Shown here: piece after piece, positions 736 through 19,199 of the stretch | How positions within the stretch are numbered: the stretch's first letter is position 1 | Layout of the letters: every line of letters starts with the position of its first letter | Virus record (IMG/VR): IMGVR_UViG_3300017748_000035 | Location: 1 to 35,413 of that record | Length of the DNA stretch: 35,413 bases | Source: a virus | Strand: one strand, 5' to 3' | Program-made: the position numbers and the translations under genes | The notes under the pieces: model-generated | Told to the model about the DNA's origin: nothing | What the model saw: the letters and a program-made list of their open reading frames with translations, nothing else | Databases searched by the model: none

Positions 736-1029
736 ATGAAAAATAAAAATCCTAATATTGATTATAAATTTGATGAAGATAAACTTATTGAAGACTTCAA
801 AGAATATATTGATAAAACTTACATGGGGCACTACAGTAAAAACTCATTTCAAGCAAGTGAATTTATTATTGATTGTGGTCATGGTATGGGATTTTTTATG
901 GGTAATGTATTGAAGTATGCCCAAAGGTATGGCAAGAAAGATGGTTATAATCGTGCCGATATTTTAAAAATACTTCACTATGCATTGATGGCTTTACATC
1001 AACATGATAAAATTAACAAGGAGAAATAA
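736..1029 (+). CDS. DUF3310-like phage protein
   Basis: This 97-residue protein resembles the phage DUF3310 (SaV-like) family. The core, about residues 37-85, reads FQASEFI...GNVLKYAQRYGKK...DILKILHYAL, matching the family pattern of a helix, 'GN-LKY--RyG-K' and a C-terminal helix. The family's biochemical role is not established, although such genes often lie with nucleotide or replication genes. I chose the ATG at 736 rather than the in-frame TTG at 730, because the promoter -10 box ends at 728 and transcription should start near 735. The mRNA would thus be leaderless. The stop is 4 nt before the clamp gene and the AAGGAG of gp45 overlaps its end, so it leads the gp45-gp44-gp62-regA operon. 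Confidence 0.75.
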   Translation: MKNKNPNIDYKFDEDKLIEDFKEYIDKTYMGHYSKNSFQASEFIIDCGHGMGFFMGNVLKYAQRYGKKDGYNRADILKILHYALMALHQHDKINKEK

Positions 1030-1033
1030 TATT

Positions 1034-1699
1034 ATGAAAATTTCGAAAGAAACTTTGAGTGTCCTTAAGAACTTTGCCACTATTAATGGCAATATTCTTA
1101 TTAAAGCTGGTAATCGTTTATCGACTATATCAGCACAAAAAAATGTTATGGCTAGTACTACTGTCCAAGAAAACTTTGATGGTGAGTTTGGTATCTATGA
1201 CTTAAATGAGTTTTTGGGTGTGTATTCTTTATTTGATGCAGATCCTGAACTTGCCTTTGATGAAAAGTTTGTCACTGTAGCAAATGGTAAATCTAAAGTA
1301 AAATATTTTGCTGCCGATCCATCAGTTCTAGCATCGCCAACTAAAGATGCTCTTCCTGTTGATGCAGATATTGAATTCGACTTATCAAAAACTATGTATG
1401 ATATGATTATGAAAACATCTTCAGTATTGAGATCTGGTGATGTATCATTCATTGGTGATGGTTCGAATGTTAGTGTAGTTGTAGCTGATAAAAAGAATGC
1501 TACTTCTAACTCTTGGGATGCTACTTTGGGCACAACTGATAAAGTGTTTAAAGTAAATTTCAGGATTGATAATTTCAAAATGCTAGATGGGGATTATGTA
1601 GTTTCTATTTCTAAGAAAAGAATCTCTAAGTTTGCTTCTAAGATGAATGACTTGACTTACTTCATCGCAGTTGAAGCTGACTCTACTTTTGACTTTTAA
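1034..1699 (+). CDS. 45: gp45 sliding clamp (DNA polymerase processivity factor)
   Basis: This 221-residue protein has the length of T4 gp45 (228). It begins with the typical clamp N-terminus (MKISKETLSVLKNFATING), followed by INGN-LIKAGNRL and YDLNEFLGVYSLF, and ends with an FIAVEADSTFDF-like strand. As a trimer it encircles DNA and tethers gp43; in T4-type phages it also activates late transcription. The start at 1034 is set by AAGGAG 9 bases upstream; an earlier in-frame ATG at 1004 lies inside the previous gene and lacks such a site. It is followed by the clamp-loader genes, as in T4. Three proteins in this window carry a C-terminal (S/T)LExFF tail that could bind this clamp. Confidence 0.95.
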   Translation: MKISKETLSVLKNFATINGNILIKAGNRLSTISAQKNVMASTTVQENFDGEFGIYDLNEFLGVYSLFDADPELAFDEKFVTVANGKSKVKYFAADPSVLASPTKDALPVDADIEFDLSKTMYDMIMKTSSVLRSGDVSFIGDGSNVSVVVADKKNATSNSWDATLGTTDKVFKVNFRIDNFKMLDGDYVVSISKKRISKFASKMNDLTYFIAVEADSTFDF

Positions 1700-5669: not shown

Positions 5670-8153
5670 ATGAAGTTTTATACAAATGTTCATCCCCATG
5701 GTAATCAGCTTCTAGTCAGATATATTTCTGGCACGAAGCGAAAAGCCGAGAAGATACCTTTCAAACCCAGTGTATGGGTCACAAAAGGTAAAGGCGAAAC
5801 ACCATACAAAACTCTTAAAGGGCATCCTGCTTATAAAATCCAACAAGGATCTATAAAGGATGCTAAAGACTTTGTACACCGATACAATGATGTTATGGAA
5901 GTACATGGTCAAACTCAGTGGCATTACCAATATATGCATGATGAGTTTAAGGATGATATTGAATGGGATAAAGAACTTATTAAGATTTGGTCAATAGATA
6001 TTGAGACTGAAACTGAAGAAGGATTCCCTAATATTGAACGAGCCAACGAGAAACTTCTACTAATTACTTTACAAGATAATCATTCAAAAGAGATTATTAC
6101 TTTCGGCACTAAAGAATATACAGGTGACGAAAAGCAACATAATAACTGGCGATATGTATATTGTCGTGATGAAAAGATTTTATTTCACAAGTTCCTAGAT
6201 TACTGGATTGAAAATTATCCTGATGTAATTACAGGTTGGAACTCTCAGTTTTTTGACCTCGCATATTTATGGCGAAGAATGTGTCATGTAATTGGCGAAG
6301 ACCATGCTCGTAGATTGTCTCCTTGGAAAATTGTACATGAACGAGAGATATTCGTAAAAGGTAATAAAGAGTTCGCCATAGCAATCGCAGGTATTGCTCA
6401 ACTTGATTATCTTGACCTCTATAAAAAATATACTTACACAGCACAAGAATCTTATCGTCTAGATAATATTGCCTTCGTTGAACTTGGTCAAAAGAAACTT
6501 GACCATAGTGAGTACGCAACATTCTCAGAGTTCTATAGAAATGATTGGAATAAATTTGTTGATTATAATGTTATTGATACAGTATTAGTTGACAGGCTAG
6601 AAGATAAAATGAAGCTGATTGAACTTCAGCTTACTATGGCATATAATGCTAAGATTAATTATGATGATGTATTTTCTCAGGTTCGTATGTGGGATATGAT
6701 TGTTCACAATTATCTGATGAAAGTAAATGTGGTAATACCACCGAAATCTAATGAAGATAAAAAGACTAAGTTTGAAGGAGCATTCGTAAAAGAGCCATTG
6801 ATTGGTTTACATAAATGGGTTGCTTCATTTGACTTGAACTCGCTGTATCCCCATTTAATTATGCAATATAATATATCTCCCGAAACTCTACAACCTGAGT
6901 CTGTAGAAAAAGGAGTTGAGCATTATCTTAAAAACCCTGCCATAGATTCGGAGTTTGCTGTTGCTGCCAATGGCTCTCAATATAGAAAAGATTTCAGAGG
7001 TGTATTCCCTAGTATTATGGAAGACTTCTATAATCAAAGGAAGATCGCTAAGAAAGAGATGCTTCAAGCACAGCAATTATATGAGGATGAGAAAGATACT
7101 CGTCAGCTAAAAGTTATATCAAGTAAGAATAATTATCAGATGGGTTTGAAGATTGCTCTTAACTCAGCTTATGGTGCACTTGGTAATCAATACTTCAGAT
7201 ACTTTAATTTAAAAATGGCTGAAGCTATTACTACTTCTGGTCAATTATCTATTCGTTGGATACACGATAGAATGAATGAATATCTCAACAAGATAATCGG
7301 TACAGAAAACGAAGATTATATTATCGCTGTTGATACAGATTCTATATATGTGACATTCGAAAAACTTGTAGATAAAGTTATGGGAGATAAACAATCTGAC
7401 ATAAATAAAACCATCAAGTTCCTAGACACTATATGTAATGATAAATTTATGCCATATATAAATGAACAATATTCTGAACTGGCTAATAGGCAAAATGCCT
7501 TTGCTAACAAGATGGTTATGGAAAGAGAAGTTCTAGCTGATAAAGGTTTATGGACTGCGAAAAAAAGGTATGTTCTTTCAGTGTATAATTCTGAAGGTGT
7601 GTCCTATAAAAAACCTAAGATGAAAATTATGGGACTAGAGATGATTAAATCTTCTACTCCCTATGCTGTTCGTGAACTTCTAAAGGGTGTGATACCAGTT
7701 ATCCTACATGGTGATAATAATGAACTCTTCAAATATATTGAAGAGACTAGAAACTATTTCAACTCTTTACCTATTGAAGAGATTTCCTTCCCTAGATCTG
7801 TAAATGGTCTCAGCAACTATAAAGATTCTATGAGCATATATAGGAAAGCAACTCCTATTCATGTCAGAGGTGCTTTACTTTATAATCATTATTTGAAAGA
7901 AAAGAACATAGACCTAAGATACAATGATATTAAAGAGGGTGAGAAAATTAAATTCGTTTACTTGAAAAAACCTAATGTCATCAGGGAGAATGTTATATCC
8001 TTCCTAGATGTTGTTCCTAAAGAGTTCGGCATACATGATTATGCTGATTATGACTTGATGTTTGAAAAGGTATTCTTAGATCCAGTCGATATCATGATAC
8101 AATCACTTGGATGGAAAGTAAAGCAAACAGCCAGTCTTGAGGATTTCTTTTAA
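5670..8153 (+). CDS. 43: gp43 family B DNA polymerase
   Basis: This 827-residue replicative polymerase (T4 gp43 is 898) is intact. The 3'-5' exonuclease motifs are Exo I SIDIET (D110, E112), Exo II GWNSQFFDLAYL, and Exo III YNVIDT. Polymerase motif A is DLNSLYP (D388), motif B is KIALNSAYGALGN, and motif C is VDTDS (D555, D557). The C-terminus ASLEDFF matches the clamp-binding tail of T4/RB69 gp43 (SLFDMF type). The ATG at 5670 is 8 nt after the -10 box with no ribosome site, so translation appears leaderless; the leader hairpin used for gp43 autoregulation in T4 would be absent. Confidence 0.97.
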   Translation: MKFYTNVHPHGNQLLVRYISGTKRKAEKIPFKPSVWVTKGKGETPYKTLKGHPAYKIQQGSIKDAKDFVHRYNDVMEVHGQTQWHYQYMHDEFKDDIEWDKELIKIWSIDIETETEEGFPNIERANEKLLLITLQDNHSKEIITFGTKEYTGDEKQHNNWRYVYCRDEKILFHKFLDYWIENYPDVITGWNSQFFDLAYLWRRMCHVIGEDHARRLSPWKIVHEREIFVKGNKEFAIAIAGIAQLDYLDLYKKYTYTAQESYRLDNIAFVELGQKKLDHSEYATFSEFYRNDWNKFVDYNVIDTVLVDRLEDKMKLIELQLTMAYNAKINYDDVFSQVRMWDMIVHNYLMKVNVVIPPKSNEDKKTKFEGAFVKEPLIGLHKWVASFDLNSLYPHLIMQYNISPETLQPESVEKGVEHYLKNPAIDSEFAVAANGSQYRKDFRGVFPSIMEDFYNQRKIAKKEMLQAQQLYEDEKDTRQLKVISSKNNYQMGLKIALNSAYGALGNQYFRYFNLKMAEAITTSGQLSIRWIHDRMNEYLNKIIGTENEDYIIAVDTDSIYVTFEKLVDKVMGDKQSDINKTIKFLDTICNDKFMPYINEQYSELANRQNAFANKMVMEREVLADKGLWTAKKRYVLSVYNSEGVSYKKPKMKIMGLEMIKSSTPYAVRELLKGVIPVILHGDNNELFKYIEETRNYFNSLPIEEISFPRSVNGLSNYKDSMSIYRKATPIHVRGALLYNHYLKEKNIDLRYNDIKEGEKIKFVYLKKPNVIRENVISFLDVVPKEFGIHDYADYDLMFEKVFLDPVDIMIQSLGWKVKQTASLEDFF

Positions 8154-10726: not shown

Positions 10727-12118
10727 ATGCGTATTGAAGACACTATATTAAATAATCTTATTCATAATGATGAGTACTGCCGAAAAGTAGTACCATTTAT
10801 TAAAGCTGAATATTTCCAAGATAGAACTGAAAAGATAATATTTGAAGAGTTTGATAAACTGTTCTTACAGTACAACAACATTCCTAATCCTGATATGATT
10901 GCTTCTGAAGTTTTTGAACGAAAAGATTTATTTGAAAACGAGCATGCTCTTATTCAGGAAAAAATACAGCAGATGTCTGAGCCAAAATCTATTAATGATA
11001 ATTGGCTATATGATAAAACTGAGGAATGGTGTAAAGAACGAGCAGTACATAATACTATTATGGACTCTATCAAAATTATCGATGGTCGTGATAAAGTACA
11101 TACCAAAGATGCGATTCCTAAAATGATGCAGGATGCTTTGGGTGTTTGCTTTGATGACTCTGTCGGTCATGATTATCTTGAAGATGCTGATGATAGATTT
11201 CAATTTTATCATAAGATTGAAGAAAAAATTAAATTTGATATTGATTTATTGAATACTATTACTCGTGGTGGTTTGAGTAAAAAAACTCTTAACATCGCCA
11301 TGGCTGGTACTGGTGTTGGTAAATCTTTGTTTATGTGTCATCATGCATCTAGTGTATTGAACGAGGGTATGAATGTTCTTTATGTCACTATGGAGATGGC
11401 TGAAGAAAAGATATCTGAAAGGATTGACGCAAACTTATTGAACTTGGGTATGGATGAAATTAAAGTTGTTGACCATGATATATTCAGTAAGAGAATTAAT
11501 AAAGTAAAAGAAAACAGTAAAGGTAAACTGATTGTAAAAGAATATCCTACAGGTGCTGCTCATGCAGGTCACTTCAGAGCATTACTTGAAGAACTTAAAA
11601 TGAAAAAAGGTTTCAAAGCAGATATTATATTTATCGATTATCTAAATATCTGTGCTTCGCAAAGACTAAGGATGGGTGCCAATGTAAATACTTATTCTTA
11701 TATCAAATCTATTGCTGAAGAACTAAGAGGTCTGGCAGTTGAATATAACTGTCCTATCGTATCAGCTACTCAAACTACAAGAGGTGGATATAATAATACT
11801 GATGTTGGTCTTGAAGATACTTCGGAGTCTTTCGGTTTACCAGCTACTGCCGATCTAATGTTTGCGATTATTGCTAGTGAAGAACTGGATAATATGGGAC
11901 AATGGATGATTAAACAACTTAAAAACAGATATTCAGATCCTAACTATTATAAGAGATTTGTAGTTGGGGTTGATAAAAACAAGATGAGATTGTACAATGT
12001 TGAAGAATCTGCCCAAAGTAATATAATGGATAGTGGGCAGGAAGAAAAAGATATCGGAGCAGTATTTGATAAAACCGATGCAGGTGAACGATTAAGTATG
12101 GAAGGATTTAAGGTATGA
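10727..12118 (+). CDS. 41: gp41 replicative DNA helicase (DnaB/RecA-type)
   Basis: This 463-residue protein (T4 gp41 is 475) has a DnaB-like N-terminal domain (MRIEDTILNNLIHNDEYCRKV) and a RecA core with Walker A GTGVGKS (194-200), TMEMAEEKISERIDANLL, Walker B DIIFIDYLNIC, and SATQTTRGGYN. It unwinds duplex 5'-3' at the fork as a hexamer and works with primase gp61 (30885). The ATG at 10727 coincides with the predicted transcription start. Its stop overlaps the next ATG as ATGA, so the TET/JBP gene is translationally coupled to the helicase. Confidence 0.96.
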   Translation: MRIEDTILNNLIHNDEYCRKVVPFIKAEYFQDRTEKIIFEEFDKLFLQYNNIPNPDMIASEVFERKDLFENEHALIQEKIQQMSEPKSINDNWLYDKTEEWCKERAVHNTIMDSIKIIDGRDKVHTKDAIPKMMQDALGVCFDDSVGHDYLEDADDRFQFYHKIEEKIKFDIDLLNTITRGGLSKKTLNIAMAGTGVGKSLFMCHHASSVLNEGMNVLYVTMEMAEEKISERIDANLLNLGMDEIKVVDHDIFSKRINKVKENSKGKLIVKEYPTGAAHAGHFRALLEELKMKKGFKADIIFIDYLNICASQRLRMGANVNTYSYIKSIAEELRGLAVEYNCPIVSATQTTRGGYNNTDVGLEDTSESFGLPATADLMFAIIASEELDNMGQWMIKQLKNRYSDPNYYKRFVVGVDKNKMRLYNVEESAQSNIMDSGQEEKDIGAVFDKTDAGERLSMEGFKV

Positions 12119-13416
12119 CAAAAACAATAACAGCACCTAAGAAATTTGACTGTGAAAATATATTGGGTAGATTTGGTGACGAAAGTCATTATGAGTTGTT
12201 AGTTGATTATGATTGTGATTTTTATGCTCCTACACCTATGGGTGAGGAAAACTCTGAAGAAAATATTATATTCAAGTTTAGAAAGAACTTCTTTTCTCAA
12301 GAACAACAAGACGAAGCATATAAAGGACTTCGTGAAGCAGCAGGTGCCACTGAAAATCGTGGACTCGCAGCAGGTATAGAAAAAACCAAATCGCTTGGCT
12401 CTAGAGATTGGGTCACTAATTACCATGAAGAATTATTGGCATATTTTCAAAACCCATCTACAACACTAGATGGTTCTGACCCAGTAGAAAATATTAAAGC
12501 TAAGTGGAAAGGTAGAGAGAATATTGCTGATGACAGTAGAGGTAATGTATGGTTGGCTCTTAAAGTTGCTGAGGAAGCATTTGAGTTTGAAGCATGGGTT
12601 GAAGAGATAAGGTTATTACCCAAAGATGAAATGGTAGCTGAAGCGAATAGAGTTAGAGATAAACTTACATCTACAACTTCTTATGCTAATCAGGTTTTCT
12701 CAGGTATCGCAGGTTATTTTGACAGATATCCTCGTATTCCTTTTGGTCGTCCTACAACTTACACTCGTGATAATTATGATAAGTTTGAGATGGCACTTCC
12801 TTTCTTACAACAACTTAGTAAAGGATTTGAAGATCTATTACCTGTCAGATATGGTAAGCAGAATGAAGCATGTGGTAAATTAGATTCTAAGTTTATTATT
12901 CCAGGAACTGTATTTACTACTGCTACTGTAAACAAAACTTTTAGAACAGCTTACCATAGAGATGCTGGTGATTTGAATGAAGGTTTTTCTAATCTTACTG
13001 TTGTATCTAATAATGGTAAATACTCAGGTGGTCATTTAATACTTCCTGAATATAAGGTTGCTGTAAACATTCGTCCTGGAGATTTATTACTAATTAATAA
13101 TCATGACGGAATACATGGTAATACACCTATGGTTATGGAATCTGATGATGCTGAAAGAATATCATTCGTGTGTTATTTTAGGGAAAAAATGTTAGAACTT
13201 GGATCTTGGGATTATGAAAGGGCAAGGGAAGATTATGTCACTGCTCGTAGAACTAATAAAGAACACCCTTTACAAAGAAAATTATGGAATGGTATCAGTC
13301 CTGGAATGTGGGATGAAAGTGAGTGGTACGATTTCTTAGAAAATAAATTAGGTATAGATGTATTGACTAAGTATCATCCCGACAGTCAGTCATCAAGTTT
13401 GGAGGAATTTTTCTAA
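12115..13416 (+). CDS. TET/JBP-family 2-oxoglutarate/Fe(II) dioxygenase, probable DNA base hydroxylase
   Basis: This is a 433-residue protein. The C-terminal half carries the double-stranded beta-helix signature: TAYHRDAGDL (H281, D283 of HxD), SGGHLILPEYKVAVNIRPGDLLL, IHGNTP (H334, distal iron ligand), and AERISFVCYFRE (R348, 2OG carboxylate). The sequence around HxD and 'GGxLxxPxYxVAVxxRPGDLL...HGN' is the pattern of the TET/JBP family (TET 5mC oxidases, JBP thymine hydroxylases and phage relatives). Residues 1-~185 are an N-terminal region I cannot place. The last residues SSSLEEFF resemble the clamp-binding tail of gp43. It is coupled to gp41 (ATGA) and to a glycosyltransferase (TAATG). 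Predicted: hydroxylation of thymine or 5mC in phage DNA. No C5 cytosine methyltransferase is in the window, so the substrate is undecided. Confidence 0.85.
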   Translation: MTKTITAPKKFDCENILGRFGDESHYELLVDYDCDFYAPTPMGEENSEENIIFKFRKNFFSQEQQDEAYKGLREAAGATENRGLAAGIEKTKSLGSRDWVTNYHEELLAYFQNPSTTLDGSDPVENIKAKWKGRENIADDSRGNVWLALKVAEEAFEFEAWVEEIRLLPKDEMVAEANRVRDKLTSTTSYANQVFSGIAGYFDRYPRIPFGRPTTYTRDNYDKFEMALPFLQQLSKGFEDLLPVRYGKQNEACGKLDSKFIIPGTVFTTATVNKTFRTAYHRDAGDLNEGFSNLTVVSNNGKYSGGHLILPEYKVAVNIRPGDLLLINNHDGIHGNTPMVMESDDAERISFVCYFREKMLELGSWDYERAREDYVTARRTNKEHPLQRKLWNGISPGMWDESEWYDFLENKLGIDVLTKYHPDSQSSSLEEFF

Positions 13417-14240
13417 TGGACATTTTAAAAGATTATCAAATCTGTATCCCATCATATAAGCGACACGAAACTGTGATGAATAAAACCATCGAGGTATTAA
13501 AGTCATATAATATTGACCCAGCTAGGATTAAAGTATTCGTGAATGATGAGGAGCCAGGAGAGTATGACAATTATGTAGATACTTTATCTAAAACTGAATA
13601 CACAAAAAATATTGAAGTCGTAAAAGGTGTACCAACTATTGGTAAGCAAAGAAACTTCATAGAGAAGTATTATCCTGAAGGAACTTATGTCATGTCTTTT
13701 GATGATGATATTGAAGAAGTACAAGTTAAGGATGGCGAGCAAAACTTACTGCGTGTTGAAGACTTTGAAAAAGAAGTTATACTTAGAGGTTTCCAAGCAT
13801 GTGAAGATAACGATGCTAAGACTTTCGGTATATATGCAGCATCAAATGCGTACTTTATGAAGCATCGTACATATACGAAACTTTGTTATATTATCGCTAG
13901 TATGTATGGATTTATAGCTGACCACGATCCTGAATTAGATCGTCATACTAATCATGGTGAAGATTATGAGTATAGTATGCGTCAATATAGAAAACATGGT
14001 GTTGTCGTAAGACTTGATGATATTACTGTAAAATCTAATTACTATAAAGAGGTTGGTGGCTTACAAACATTTAGAACTGCTGAAAATATTAAGTCAAGTA
14101 TTGAGTGGATTGCTGAGAACTTTGACGATTTATGTACGATGTATATTCGTAAGACTACTGGGCATGCTGAATTAAAATTGCGTGATACATCTGGTGGTAA
14201 ATATGATAAAAATTTAAGCACATTAGAAGGTTTCTTTTGA
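13416..14240 (+). CDS. GT-A glycosyltransferase of the TET/JBP-associated (TAGT / base-J GT-like) type
   Basis: This 274-residue protein begins YQICIPSYKRHETV, with KTIEVLKSYNIDPARIKVFVNDEEP and the metal-binding FDDDIEE (D96-D98), then GEDYEYSMRQYRKHG, consistent with a GT-A fold. 'IPSYKR...KT...FV' and its place directly after a TET/JBP gene fit the TET/JBP-associated glycosyltransferases related to the base J glucosyltransferase and GREB1. It would add a sugar to the hydroxylated base. It ends STLEGFF, the same class of tail as gp43 and the dioxygenase. The start overlaps the upstream stop (TAATG). Confidence 0.8.
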   Translation: MDILKDYQICIPSYKRHETVMNKTIEVLKSYNIDPARIKVFVNDEEPGEYDNYVDTLSKTEYTKNIEVVKGVPTIGKQRNFIEKYYPEGTYVMSFDDDIEEVQVKDGEQNLLRVEDFEKEVILRGFQACEDNDAKTFGIYAASNAYFMKHRTYTKLCYIIASMYGFIADHDPELDRHTNHGEDYEYSMRQYRKHGVVVRLDDITVKSNYYKEVGGLQTFRTAENIKSSIEWIAENFDDLCTMYIRKTTGHAELKLRDTSGGKYDKNLSTLEGFF

Positions 14241-14368
14241 ACGAATTAAAACCATTTATCTTAGGTATAGCAATAGCAATGTTATTTGTTGGTCTTATAA
14301 TATGGATAAGTCCATATGGTGGTCAGCATGAGCCATTAGATATATTAATTAGAATCTATCAACAATGA
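14237..14368 (+). CDS. 43-residue membrane peptide inside the modification operon
   Basis: A TTG start at 14237 overlaps the glycosyltransferase stop (TTGA), and its TGA (14366-14368) overlaps the next ATG (ATGA), so it fits seamlessly in the operon. The product NELKPFILGIAIAMLFVGLI has one clear transmembrane helix (about 7-25) and a short C-terminal part (SPYGGQHEPLD...). The function is unknown. It could anchor or regulate neighbours, or act on the envelope. The main doubt is the TTG start. Confidence 0.6.
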   Translation: MNELKPFILGIAIAMLFVGLIIWISPYGGQHEPLDILIRIYQQ

Positions 14369-14784
14369 GAACTGGTATAACTGCTTCAACTTTCGACCTG
14401 CTTCATGCTGGTCATGTACAAATGTTAAGGGATGCCAAATCTCAATGCGATTATTTAATAGCATGTTTACAGATAGATCCTAGTATAGATAGAAAAGATA
14501 AAAATGCTCCAATACAAACTGTCGTTGAAAGATACACACAATTAAAAGCAGTAAAATATGTTGATGAGATTATACCATATTCAAGCGAAAAAGATTTAGA
14601 AGATATCTTAGAATTATATGAGATTGATGTTAGAATACTAGGCGAGGAATATAGAGAAAAAGATTTTACTGGTAAGGATATATGTAAGAGAAGAGATATA
14701 GAATTATATTTTAATAAGAGGGAACATAGGTTTTCCTCCACAGATTTGAGAGAAAGGGTGAGTGAGCAATGGTCTGGAAAGTAG
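14365..14784 (+). CDS. TagD-like cytidylyltransferase (HIGH nucleotidyltransferase)
   Basis: This 139-residue protein contains TASTFDLLHAGHVQML (HxGH signature near the N-terminus), ERYTQLKAVKYVDEIIPY, and HRFSSTDLRERV (the RxSSTxxR second signature), the layout of glycerol-3-phosphate cytidylyltransferases and related sugar-phosphate nucleotidyltransferases. It would activate a phosphorylated small molecule with CTP or ATP. In this operon it may supply the nucleotide-linked donor for the glycosyltransferase (inference; alternatively it modifies a virion or host glycan). It is coupled upstream by ATGA and overlaps the cupin by 16 nt. Confidence 0.85.
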   Translation: MRTGITASTFDLLHAGHVQMLRDAKSQCDYLIACLQIDPSIDRKDKNAPIQTVVERYTQLKAVKYVDEIIPYSSEKDLEDILELYEIDVRILGEEYREKDFTGKDICKRRDIELYFNKREHRFSSTDLRERVSEQWSGK

Positions 14785-15083
14785 CAAAGAAAGACGAAAG
14801 ATATACTGTATTAGATTATGAAGGATTGAATGTTCTCGTACCTTCTCTCACAATTTTACAACCTGGATGTGAAACTAATGGTCATGTACACAGTGACCCA
14901 CAACAGGAAGAAGTTTATGTATTTACAACTGGCACTGGACTCATGGAAGTTGAAGATGAAACGATCTCTGTAAAAGCTGGAGACATCATCCCAGTGCCAG
15001 CCAATAAATTTCATAAAGTCTATAATAATGATGTAGTGCCATTACACTTTGCTGCTGTATTCAATGGTGCTAGATATGAGTAA
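14769..15083 (+). CDS. single-domain cupin
   Basis: This 104-residue protein shows both cupin motifs: GHVHSDPQQEEVYVFTTGTG (HxH...E metal ligands) and GDIIPVPANKFHKVYN (PxN...H). Small cupins include sugar isomerases, epimerase-like enzymes and metal-dependent binding proteins. The reaction cannot be read from sequence. Being translationally interlocked (16-nt overlap) with the cytidylyltransferase, it probably acts on the same sugar or polyol pathway. It ends the interlocked set. Confidence 0.85.
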   Translation: MVWKVAKKDERYTVLDYEGLNVLVPSLTILQPGCETNGHVHSDPQQEEVYVFTTGTGLMEVEDETISVKAGDIIPVPANKFHKVYNNDVVPLHFAAVFNGARYE

Positions 15084-15118: not shown

Positions 15119-15667
15119 ATGGCAAAGTGGTATAGAGATAAAGCAATAATCAATGTCAGAGGTGGAGATGCCGAGACTAGAAAACTTGTTCGCTCTATCG
15201 CCCACTGGGTTTCTCGAAAAACTATGGATGTTCGACTCCGAACATCTGTCACTGTAAATATCGTAATACAAAAAAACTTATATCTTAAGGAAAAAGTCCA
15301 AGGATTATCTTGGATTGACGATGAAGCATATCGTCCTAAGAAATTTAAGATACAGGTTGAAAAGGAATCTAGACTAAGACCTTTGCTAGAAACTATTGCC
15401 CATGAAATGATACATGTTAAGCAATGGGCATCTGGTGAAATGTATGAATATTCTGATGGCTTTAGGACTCGTTATAGAAAGCAAGGGTTTAACACTAAAA
15501 AGTTAGATTATTGGGATGCTCCTTGGGAAGTAGAAGCACATGGTAAAGAGGTTGGTCTATTCGTAAGATGGGCAGAAGAAGAAGGATATAACAAACTTCC
15601 TTGGGCACAAATTGACTTCCTAAAACCTGAGTATGCCAAGAAAATTAAAAATCAAATAAAATCGTAA
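15119..15667 (+). CDS. zincin-like metalloprotein (HExxH), possible SprT-type protease
   Basis: This 182-residue protein has IAHEMIHVKQW (HExxH with two His and catalytic Glu) and, downstream, WEVEAHGKE, which could provide the third zinc ligand (Glu). The N-terminal part is a basic, strand-rich region (VRSIAHWVSRKTMDVRLRTSVTV). SprT/Spartan-like zincins cut DNA-bound proteins; this is a possible but unproved assignment. No ribosome site precedes ATG 15119; the sequence ACTAAATA (15105-15112) 6 nt upstream resembles a T4-type late promoter box, so this gene may also be leaderless or late. Confidence 0.7.
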   Translation: MAKWYRDKAIINVRGGDAETRKLVRSIAHWVSRKTMDVRLRTSVTVNIVIQKNLYLKEKVQGLSWIDDEAYRPKKFKIQVEKESRLRPLLETIAHEMIHVKQWASGEMYEYSDGFRTRYRKQGFNTKKLDYWDAPWEVEAHGKEVGLFVRWAEEEGYNKLPWAQIDFLKPEYAKKIKNQIKS

Positions 15668-17617: not shown

Positions 17618-17958
17618 TGGCACAAGTACACGAAATGTTATACATGAAAATGGATAATGGTGATTATATCTATGGTACTAATTTAGATATTGGTAAATAC
17701 TCAGTAAAGTTTGACCCACCACTTGAATGTAAATATGAGTTTGACCATGTACCACCTATGAAACTAGAAGGACAAGGTGGCTACTCGGAAGGATCTAAAG
17801 CATTCAAGTATGTTGGTACTGACCACGATCCTATGACAGTTTCTCATCCACCTAGCCAAGAGATGATGAGAGTGACTGCTCGAGGTGATAAAGAATTCTA
17901 TAAAACTAATGGCTGGGATTATGAAACAGGGGAGTTAATATACAACGAAAAATGGTAA
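17617..17958 (+). CDS. hypothetical protein
   Basis: This 113-residue protein has a beta-rich N-terminus (VHEMLYMKMDNGDYIYGTNLD), a His/Pro-rich middle (HDPMTVSHPPS) and a Trp-rich C-terminus (GWDYETGELIYNEKW). I do not recognise it. TAATG couples it to the upstream gene, and its stop overlaps the next start by 7 nt. Confidence 0.7.
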   Translation: MAQVHEMLYMKMDNGDYIYGTNLDIGKYSVKFDPPLECKYEFDHVPPMKLEGQGGYSEGSKAFKYVGTDHDPMTVSHPPSQEMMRVTARGDKEFYKTNGWDYETGELIYNEKW

Positions 17959-19199
17959 AATCATTTAAGACATTAATTACTGAGCAAAAAAATGTTCATA
18001 TGGAACATATTGAAGACATCCTCTTTGACGAGGGTGTCGCTGGTGCTAGACGAGCAATTAATTTCATGCAAGGTATGCGTGATATGTTGGCTGGTAAATC
18101 ATCAAACAAAGTAAATGCTACAGTAAAATGGGATGGTGCACCAGCAATCTTTGCTGGTACAGATCCTAGAAATGGAAAAAAGTTTGTTGCTAAAAAAGGT
18201 ATCTTCAATAAAGATCCTAAAGTTTATTATACACCTGCCGATGTTAAGAAAGATACATCTGGGGACTTACAAGCAAAGCTATTAATTTGCTTGAAATATT
18301 TACCCAAGATTCTACCAGATCGTGGTATCTTTCAAGGAGACTTAATGTGGGCAGGTCGTAATGACTTAAAATTAAAAGATATAGATGGTCAGTCTATGGT
18401 GACTTTTCAACCTAATACTATCGTCTATGCTGTTCCTGCTATATCAGGATTATCAAATGTTATTCGTCGTGCTCATATGGGTATCGTCTGGCATACTGAA
18501 TATACTGGAAATACATTCGATACTCTTAGAGCATCGTTTGGTAAAAACATTGCTAAGAAAATGAAACAACCTGGAATACTAGGTGGCGATGTTTGGTTTG
18601 ATGATGCTACTTATAAAGATGTATCAGGTCAAGCATCTATGACTGCTAAAGAAACAGCTGAGTTTACTAAGCAACTATCTGCTATCGGTACTCAGTTTAG
18701 AAAAGTAAATGCTAATATATTGAACAGTATTAATGCTAATAAAGATTTGCTTATCAATATCAAGGCATTTAACAATACTAAGATAAAAGCAGGGAAAAGG
18801 ATTACCAACCCAAGCCAGCATGTGACGCAAATGTTTCATTATATTGCTAACAAGTATAAGAAAGAAATAGATAGCAAGAAAACTGAAGCTGGTAAGAATA
18901 CTTGGAAAGCTAAAAAGAATGATGTACTGTCATTTTTTATAAATGACAAACAAAAAATCGTTGAGATATTTAAGCTGATGAATATGATGGTGGATGCAAA
19001 GCAAACACTAATCAATAAAATGAACCAAATTGGATCTATGAAAACTTTTGTAAGGACTCGCAATGGGTTTAAAGTGACAGGAGTTGAGGGTTATGTGGCT
19101 ATTGACAAGATGTCAGGGAAAGCTGTAAAACTGGTAGATAGACTTGAGTTCTCTCGCCTGAATTTTTCTCCTGAAATATTGAAAGGTTGGAATAAATAA
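17952..19199 (+). CDS. DUF6267-like protein with ligase/nucleotidyltransferase motifs and capsid-targeting-like N-terminus
   Basis: This 415-residue protein resembles a family widespread in T4-like marine phages (which I recall as DUF6267). Sequence motifs match the covalent nucleotidyltransferase fold of DNA/RNA ligases: motif I VKWDGAPA (K59 as candidate AMP-accepting lysine, KxDG), IFQGDLMW (D130, motif III-like), VEGYVAI (E379, motif IV-like), and GKAVKLVD (K393, motif V-like). The N-terminus KSFKTLITE resembles the T4 internal-protein capsid-targeting sequence, with an I-T-E cleavage-type site. This suggests a ligase-like enzyme packaged in the head, though activity is unproved. It overlaps the upstream gene by 7 nt. 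Confidence 0.75.
   Translation: MVKSFKTLITEQKNVHMEHIEDILFDEGVAGARRAINFMQGMRDMLAGKSSNKVNATVKWDGAPAIFAGTDPRNGKKFVAKKGIFNKDPKVYYTPADVKKDTSGDLQAKLLICLKYLPKILPDRGIFQGDLMWAGRNDLKLKDIDGQSMVTFQPNTIVYAVPAISGLSNVIRRAHMGIVWHTEYTGNTFDTLRASFGKNIAKKMKQPGILGGDVWFDDATYKDVSGQASMTAKETAEFTKQLSAIGTQFRKVNANILNSINANKDLLINIKAFNNTKIKAGKRITNPSQHVTQMFHYIANKYKKEIDSKKTEAGKNTWKAKKNDVLSFFINDKQKIVEIFKLMNMMVDAKQTLINKMNQIGSMKTFVRTRNGFKVTGVEGYVAIDKMSGKAVKLVDRLEFSRLNFSPEILKGWNK

Follow-up and report, generated by a model that had tools for sequence, protein, structure and literature searches.

The 35,413-base stretch analysed here (the window; IMG/VR virus record IMGVR_UViG_3300017748_000035) derives from a marine T4-like phage, with genes for gp45, gp44, gp62, regA and gp43 followed by those for UvsX and gp41. 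Behind gp41 lie four + strand genes for a TET/JBP-type oxygenase dependent on 2-oxoglutarate (2OG) and Fe(II) (hereafter the TET), a TAGT-family glycosyltransferase, a cytidylyltransferase-like protein and a cupin (Table 1), which an original prediction had read as an operon for hypermodification of DNA bases. All four open reading frames (ORFs) are present as claimed, and the four families are borne out by Pfam scores above the curated cut-offs. The genes had also been described as all overlapping. This is true of TET and TAGT (which share TAATG) and of the cytidylyltransferase and cupin, and gp41 overlaps the TET gene via ATGA, but TAGT and the cytidylyltransferase lie 124 nt apart. The gap is occupied by a putative TTG-start ORF that overlaps both neighbours, spanning the TAGT stop and the cytidylyltransferase start, and whose product is hydrophobic in its N-terminal half. 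Near-identical contigs (99.9%) of the window exist in IMG/VR, the longest (G002) being 61,677 bases.

Table 1. Position and supporting evidence of the operon genes, the C-terminal tails and the two replication genes discussed in the text.
Feature	Position	Strand	Evidence
gp45 sliding clamp, proposed docking partner	1004..1699	+	PF09116, 26.8 bits (cut-off 25); T4 gp45, 31% identity, E 1e-27
gp43-type family B DNA polymerase	5670..8153	+	PF00136, 103.6 bits; last 8 residues TASLEDFF, codons 8127-8150
TET/JBP 2OG-Fe(II) oxygenase, 433 amino acids; proposed thymine 5-hydroxylase on DNA	12115..13416	+	Tet_JBP PF12851, 73.1 bits (curated cut-off 34.9); fold; phrog_24024
TET last 8 residues SSSLEEFF, proposed gp45-docking motif	13390..13413	+	Tail comparison, enrichment
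TAGT-family GT-A glycosyltransferase, 274 amino acids; proposed 5-hydroxymethyluracil DNA glycosyltransferase	13416..14240	+	TAGT PF20691, 45.6 bits (cut-off 27.5); D96-D98; GT-A-like model
TAGT last 8 residues LSTLEGFF, proposed clamp-docking motif	14214..14237	+	Tail comparison, enrichment
43-codon TTG-start ORF, putative	14237..14368	+	Between TAGT and cytidylyltransferase; hydrophobic stretch
TagD/RfaE-like nucleotidyltransferase (cytidylyltransferase), 139 amino acids; possible donor activation	14365..14784	+	CTP_transf_like PF01467, 56.8 bits (cut-off 21)
Single-domain cupin, 104 amino acids; possible sugar isomerase/epimerase	14769..15083	+	Cupin_2 PF07883, 41.9 bits (cut-off 27.2)

The Fe(II) triad (HxD...H) and 2OG arginine of the TET (H281, D283, H334 and R348), which the original prediction had named along with a GGHLILPEY motif beginning at residue 305, are invariant across 30 sequences. 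The protein matches phrog_24024 (539 bits), a PHROG of unknown function, and in IMG/VR, 551 of the 599 pattern stretches among the matches listed encode TET relatives, far above chance. A structure model was built from a 29-sequence alignment (mean predicted local distance difference test score 88.9), and its 26 best Foldseek matches in the PDB were all CcTet, TET2, NgTET1 or CMD1. VIA-align gave Z scores of 21.1 for TET2 (root-mean-square deviation 3.8, 262 residues), 19.9 for CMD1, 19.1 for NgTET1 and 18.2 for CcTet, the best oxygenase from outside the TET group being ALKBH3 (14.2). Identity as a protein-modifying 2OG enzyme, which the original prediction had named among the outcomes that would refute it, was rejected on this predicted fold. 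Single TET and TAGT sequences gave only spurious-looking phmmer matches in the PDB; a profile from 30 TET relatives ranked human TET2 first among PDB sequences (E 1e-4). The 12115 gene product is a TET/JBP oxygenase by sequence and modelled fold, and oxidation of a 5-methylpyrimidine in DNA is its predicted activity. The family is hidden from keyword searches in some GenBank records, where the TET/JBP-like proteins of DLP6, Cr30, S-CBWM1 and HTVC112P (L005, L007, L008 and L010) are labelled 'SNF2 DNA repair protein'.

In the TAGT protein, D96-D97-D98 is invariant in 20 aligned sequences, and the model is GT-A-like with an S-CBWM1 glycosyltransferase as best viral match (5.7e-22). Because its PDB fold matches are generic GT-A enzymes, including the teichoic-acid transferases TarS, TarP and RmlT, the fold leaves the acceptor open and does not by itself exclude the cell-wall role that the original prediction had held out as an alternative; its family, its linkage to the TET and the C-terminal tail described below argue against that role and point to DNA. 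The linkage is close, with a TET directly upstream in 22 of 26 distinct TAGT relatives and shortly downstream in 2, the other 2 lying at a contig edge. More generally, these fold matches would suit an oxygenase or glycosyltransferase acting on protein, lipid or cell wall. Such a target is very improbable in view of a TET fold whose top matches are DNA base oxygenases, a polymerase-type tail on both enzymes and the exchange with ADDT (amino acid:DNA transferase) under the same TET. An operon for hypermodifying DNA bases, with TET and TAGT at its centre, is supported.

Shared C-terminal tails are a further feature of the operon. The pattern [ST]LE[DEG]FF ends 3 of the 42 window genes inspected, those for gp43, TET and TAGT. 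Of 2,120 unique ORF proteins, each 80 amino acids or longer, from 241 TET loci, 211 close with a strict version of this tail against 0.34 expected; chance was rejected as its origin, since the six-residue core occurs only 29 times in 535,822 internal positions of the same proteins, the frequency from which that expectation was derived. The tail is concentrated in the polymerase (36/37), TET (133/154), TAGT (18/21) and GT-B (15/18) families, with 2/6 in ADDT proteins of the L020 type, and most of the 21 TETs outside the strict pattern carry a looser form such as SLEGFL or SMDEFF. It closes none of 59 kinases, 52 gp41, 45 UvsX, 45 gp44, 52 gp45, 50 GTc0 or 9 GTc8 proteins. Only 7 of 1,444 other proteins have it; of three scanned, two match TAGT (at 69.5 bits and, below the cut-off, 22.6) and the third is a weak, sub-threshold match to a glycosyltransferase.

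One study describes the C-termini of gp43, gp55 and gp33 as highly similar, gp45-binding and interchangeable (PMC2988020), and an LDFL motif is noted for gp55 and gp33 in another (PMC9690074). T4 gp43 itself ends SLDFLFG and T4 gp55 ends SLDFLYEAND. That TET and TAGT share a tail with the phage DNA polymerase suggests that both enzymes travel with the replication clamp and modify DNA as it is synthesised. The tail might instead be shared without clamp binding, for example as a proteolysis or folding signal. Such an explanation draws on the facts that the pattern was derived from the very proteins in which it was counted and that clamp binding is deduced from sequence; we hold it to be quite improbable because the tail is concentrated in the polymerase, the TET and TET-linked glycosyltransferases, is missing from gp41, UvsX and gp44, and resembles the ends of known clamp ligands. 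Furthermore, it is found in none of six TETs from phages not of T4 type. These six, a mixture of podoviruses, siphoviruses and actinophages, presumably have no T4-type clamp.

Some observations nevertheless weigh against clamp docking. The pattern was written after the tails had been seen, and for this reason the polymerase is the independent part of the evidence. ADDT proteins of the L077 type never carry the tail (0/73), the TETs of S-CBWM1 and Cr30 lack it, and those of DLP6 (ATLGDFFV) and Melnitz miss the strict form; that of C48C1 has it. In pull-downs with gp45, T4 alpha-glucosyltransferase binds and beta-glucosyltransferase does not, yet the same source states that clamp contact is not the main cause of the dominance of the alpha enzyme (PMC13216743). 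Like the window system as proposed, T4 alpha-glucosyltransferase is a DNA glycosyltransferase attached to the sliding clamp, an attachment that in the window would be made by the tail. The T4 enzyme differs in that neither T4 glucosyltransferase has a polymerase-like C-terminus and in that the window oxygenase carries the tail as well. In mammals, replicating heterochromatin recruits Tet1s, probably not via PCNA according to PMC9440122. A phage TET at a sliding clamp appears in none of the clamp-literature matches listed, which cover open-licence papers only and are not evidence of absence in print.

The genes behind the TET are exchanged between relatives. Because similarity to genes of the clade itself was used to collect our cassette sets, they describe this clade, not all phages. 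Of 165 distinct TET DNA sequences (from 239 rows), 79 are followed by 6.5 kb or more of sequence, where we found ADDT (41), TAGT (16), GT-B (10), a c8 glycosyltransferase-like gene (5), TAGT with ADDT (2), a UDP-galactopyranose-mutase-like gene (1) or no recognised partner (4); loci fetched via TAGT and ADDT queries are included, which inflates both. Loci from TET queries alone, with the same minimum downstream (n=46), gave ADDT (23), GT-B (10), c8 (5), TAGT (3), TAGT with ADDT (2) and none recognised (3), so that ADDT is the commonest partner of the TET (25/46, counting TAGT with ADDT). The ADDT family (amino acid:DNA transferase, PF18724) is above cut-off in 14 of 55 records versus none of 14 control genomes, scoring 72.8 bits in L077 and 180.7 in Cr30. 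The best 80 of 561 ADDT loci yielded 69 distinct ADDT genes, and all 32 with at least 4 kb upstream have a TET there on the same strand.

A total of 206 phage records, two of them from Cr30 itself, match the ADDT of Cr30; most belong to phages of Salmonella, Klebsiella and Escherichia, and most of the phages we take to be Ackermannviridae. Two of the 40 matches listed are annotated alpha-glutamyl/putrescinyl thymine pyrophosphorylase. This agrees with the role we assume for ADDT, that of a thymine-type transferase acting on hydroxymethyluracil-derived thymine. Cr30 itself (L007 15027-18474) carries behind its TET, in a row, ADDT, a TAGT-like gene and an annotated inositol-1-phosphate synthase, so that both types of decoration occur in one cultured phage. 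In C48C1 (L006 13323-15355) the TET is followed by a protein without a Pfam match and then by a UDP-galactopyranose-mutase-like protein (named by eye), which suggests a furanose decoration.

In a quick LG+G4 tree built from 144 unique TETs, we counted 20 changes of cassette label, against a minimum possible of 5 and a shuffled mean of 52.6; the starred branches by themselves require 8 or more changes for ADDT and 6 or more for TAGT. These label counts are approximate: 12 of the 239 TET rows were dropped as truncated or outside 380-520 amino acids, 19 of the 144 are unlabelled and uncounted, and long branches (L008, L137, L131, L100, L223, L105 and L210 among others) were flagged. Labels came from tblastn with few queries, which misses divergent partners. 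Thus L285 is labelled as having none, yet the gene after its TET resembles the TAGT of L283 (69.5 bits), and in DLP6 a TAGT (39.1 bits) lies on the upstream side of the TET.

The window TET belongs to a group of five rows (SH-aLRT 100) that also contains L020, L022 and L023, which carry ADDT, and L021, which is too short to tell. Its nearest relatives with visible next genes (82-89% identical) all have ADDT: the same three, L024 and the partial L047 (89%). Compared with the window, L020, L022 and L024 keep the UvsX, gp41, TET and SprT-like genes at 84-96% identity, and in place of TAGT, cytidylyltransferase and cupin they have an FkbM-type gene, an ADDT-like gene, a myo-inositol-phosphate-synthase-like gene and a P-loop kinase; L047 has the same set. 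No family was assigned to the ADDT-like protein of L020 by hmmscan, yet the genome search gave 41.6 bits at the same place, over the cut-off, a discrepancy that is unexplained; the protein aligns with the ADDT of L077 (26% identity) and with that of Cr30, in agreement with the genome-search score. The SprT-like gene, a weak match below cut-off in the window (15119-15667, + strand), delimits the exchanged cassette on its downstream side in these closest relatives.

The cassette exchange bears directly on the substrate. The original prediction saw no C5-cytosine methyltransferase in the window, as our PF00145 search of it bears out, and allowed for either thymine as the target or a methyltransferase elsewhere; the wider data favour thymine. 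PF00145 was found in none of 40 distinct records (2.71 Mb; searches of 7 and 34 records, one shared), each of which carries a TET relative. Four of these are complete phage genomes (DLP6, C48C1, Cr30 and S-CBWM1), and the others are IMG/VR records that measure 23 to 173 kb and may be fragments; two hold distant TETs (S-CBWM1, and G035 behind L134). The same search does detect an HhaI-like enzyme, adjacent to the divergent Melnitz TET (1 of 7 TET phages). PF00303 (thymidylate synthase/hydroxymethylase) was found in 1 of 22 distinct records, Cr30 (1/7 and 0/16, one shared), and ThyX in 6 of 20, and the TET is therefore the only visible source of hydroxymethyluracil in most records searched. Because the same TET serves both ADDT and TAGT cassettes, and ADDT presumably acts on hydroxymethyluracil-derived thymine, the TET would most simply make hydroxymethyluracil from thymine; the gene comparisons favour this conversion of thymine to 5-hydroxymethyluracil as the shared step.

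A further hint comes from the TET2 alignment. The profile of relatives aligns R348...R356 of the window protein with R...H in the RISLVFYQH segment of TET2, whose last residue is His1904, which we take to touch the base. Arginine occupies this position in all 142 parsed members (2 of 144 were unparsable) as well as in HTVC112P and P12024L, with aspartate in Melnitz and leucine or isoleucine in four actinophages. Because the role of His1904 is assumed, the arginine is a hint about substrate specificity and no test of it. HTVC112P (L010 4674-5582), a 32-kb pelagiphage with the same arginine, has a short TET (302 amino acids) followed by an annotated FkbM methyltransferase. In Melnitz (L015 4010-6194), the C5-methyltransferase lies directly before the TET with aspartate for arginine, a natural counterpart of the 5-methylcytosine type.

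Alternatively, the TET could oxidise 5-methylcytosine made by a host or unsequenced phage methyltransferase, with TAGT glycosylating the resulting 5-hydroxymethylcytosine. The arrangement of phage C5-methyltransferase, TET and glycosyltransferases is described as frequent in PMC12730594, and Melnitz has such a methyltransferase beside its TET. According to PMC13390438, the TAGT of T6-like phages is thought to act on glucosyl-hydroxymethylcytosine. The window genome is also incomplete, and a methyltransferase could lie beyond even its longest contig. Six further TET phages of other kinds likewise lack PF00145, so that its absence is by itself no proof of thymine, and 5-methylcytosine in the host could be the TET substrate. 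Moreover, ADDT is present in relatives of the window and not in the window itself, with none over cut-off in G002. A 2021 study by Burke reportedly found phage TET activity on 5-methylcytosine, and to our knowledge no chemistry is known for any member of the present TET clade. We nonetheless regard a cytosine pathway as unlikely, given the empty PF00145 search of 40 records, the prevalence of the presumably thymine-type ADDT as partner of the same TET, and the arginine that contrasts with the aspartate of Melnitz.

The place of the last two genes is less clear. The nucleotidyltransferase falls under both NCBIfam cut-offs (TagD TIGR01518, 69.7 versus 165.4; RfaE domain II TIGR02199, 71.5 versus 181.5). 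We inspected the best 80 of its 593 relatives, 79 of them other than L001, with flanks of up to 7 kb that are shorter at contig ends. Within the flank available a TET occurs at only 2 of these 79, both the window's own contigs, and a relative of the window cupin at 25. This scarcity makes it less likely that the cytidylyltransferase is part of a pathway specific to the TET, and would suit a separate module for cell-surface sugar or CDP-alcohol metabolism beside a DNA-modifying TET and TAGT; cyanophage clusters of cupin, nucleotidyltransferase and glycosyltransferase genes have been read as modifying outer polysaccharides (PMC7824862). Two observations partly restore the link to DNA. The order TET-TAGT-cytidylyltransferase recurs in L127 and L128, with the last gene directly after TAGT, and in L297-L300 the genes after the cytidylyltransferase encode an epimerase and a glucosyltransferase of the AGT family (PF11440, 101.5 bits in L297; the others by similarity) that ends DLESFFA or GLEEFFA/G in three complete copies, a loose clamp-type tail. 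On balance the cytidylyltransferase may serve DNA decoration, and the separate module is a serious contender that we place slightly short of an even chance. Of the single pathway from gp41 through the cupin that was originally proposed, TET and TAGT are supported; gp41, an upstream replicative helicase, is not a member, and the cytidylyltransferase and cupin are possible members. The AGT-family genes (L297 8274-9599, L299 8298-9620 and L300 8157-9479) have no TET within their flanks and may represent a further module for DNA glycosylation coupled to the clamp. L304 has a cupin (Cupin_2, 34.6 bits) that directly overlaps the cytidylyltransferase, next to a polymerase gene 29% identical to that of the window.

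Taken together, we think it probable that the operon carries out a base-J-like, clamp-coupled glycosylation of thymine in the phage's own DNA. The TET would hydroxylate the methyl group of thymine to give 5-hydroxymethyluracil, and since it would act on thymine directly no methyltransferase would be needed. TAGT would then join a sugar to the new hydroxyl. The LExFF tails would dock both enzymes on gp45 at newly made DNA, as the polymerase docks, and the cytidylyltransferase and cupin may supply the activated donor. Protection from host nucleases would be a plausible purpose. The enzyme families are known ones; it is their arrangement that makes two claims testable, namely the oxidation and then glycosylation of thymine in a phage and the recruitment of a TET by a sliding clamp. 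We see an even chance that this extends to a widespread clade of aquatic T4-like phages in which a clamp-riding TET hydroxylates thymine in new DNA and the cassette behind it is swapped to add sugars (TAGT or GT-B) or groups derived from amino acids (ADDT with kinase), the window phage making a prokaryotic counterpart of base J.

The closest parallel is the base J pathway of kinetoplastids (JBP1/JBP2 and the base-J glucosyltransferase), which likewise pairs a TET/JBP oxygenase with a later glycosyltransferase, needs no methyltransferase and has glycosylated 5-hydroxymethyluracil as the product predicted here. Unlike it, the window is from a phage, its TET and TAGT genes are adjacent and end in clamp-type tails, and no J-binding domain was found by Pfam. 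The phage cytosine hypermodification system of C5-methyltransferase, TET and glycosyltransferase, said to have been described by Burke in 2021, shares the TET and glycosyltransferase; it differs from the window clade, where a search of 40 records with a TET relative found no C5-methyltransferase. Thymidine hypermodification, with ADDT/aGPT-Pplase and a 5-hydroxymethyluracil DNA kinase (phages ViI, M6 and phiW-14), shares the proposed entry through hydroxymethyluracil, and sisters of the window carry ADDT and a P-loop kinase behind the TET. The window has TAGT instead, and its source of 5-hydroxymethyluracil would be the TET. In phages of the ViI/M6 type this base presumably comes from a pyrimidine hydroxymethylase. 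A tet-like gene with aGPT-Pplase2 and a 5-hydroxymethyluracil kinase is reported for Rhodococcus phage Tonitrus as a proposed thymidine system (PMC11955845).

If correct, this reading would mean that phages make hydroxymethyluracil after replication by direct oxidation of thymine, and that base-J-like glycosylated thymine occurs outside eukaryotes. It would link base modification with the replisome, much as DNMT1 docks on PCNA but here in a phage and with an oxygenase, and the clamp tail would serve as a simple sequence marker separating DNA-decorating from cell-surface glycosyltransferases in T4-like genomes. The cassette swaps under a constant TET imply that phages can alter their DNA chemistry while keeping its first step, which can be tested directly in cultured relatives, Caulobacter phage Cr30 for example. 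Finally, two minor features of the window may be recorded. Its GC content is 35%, which was not used as evidence, and a full-length DUF6267 protein (17952-19199, + strand; 357 bits), from a phage family of unknown function, is encoded near the operon in several relatives.

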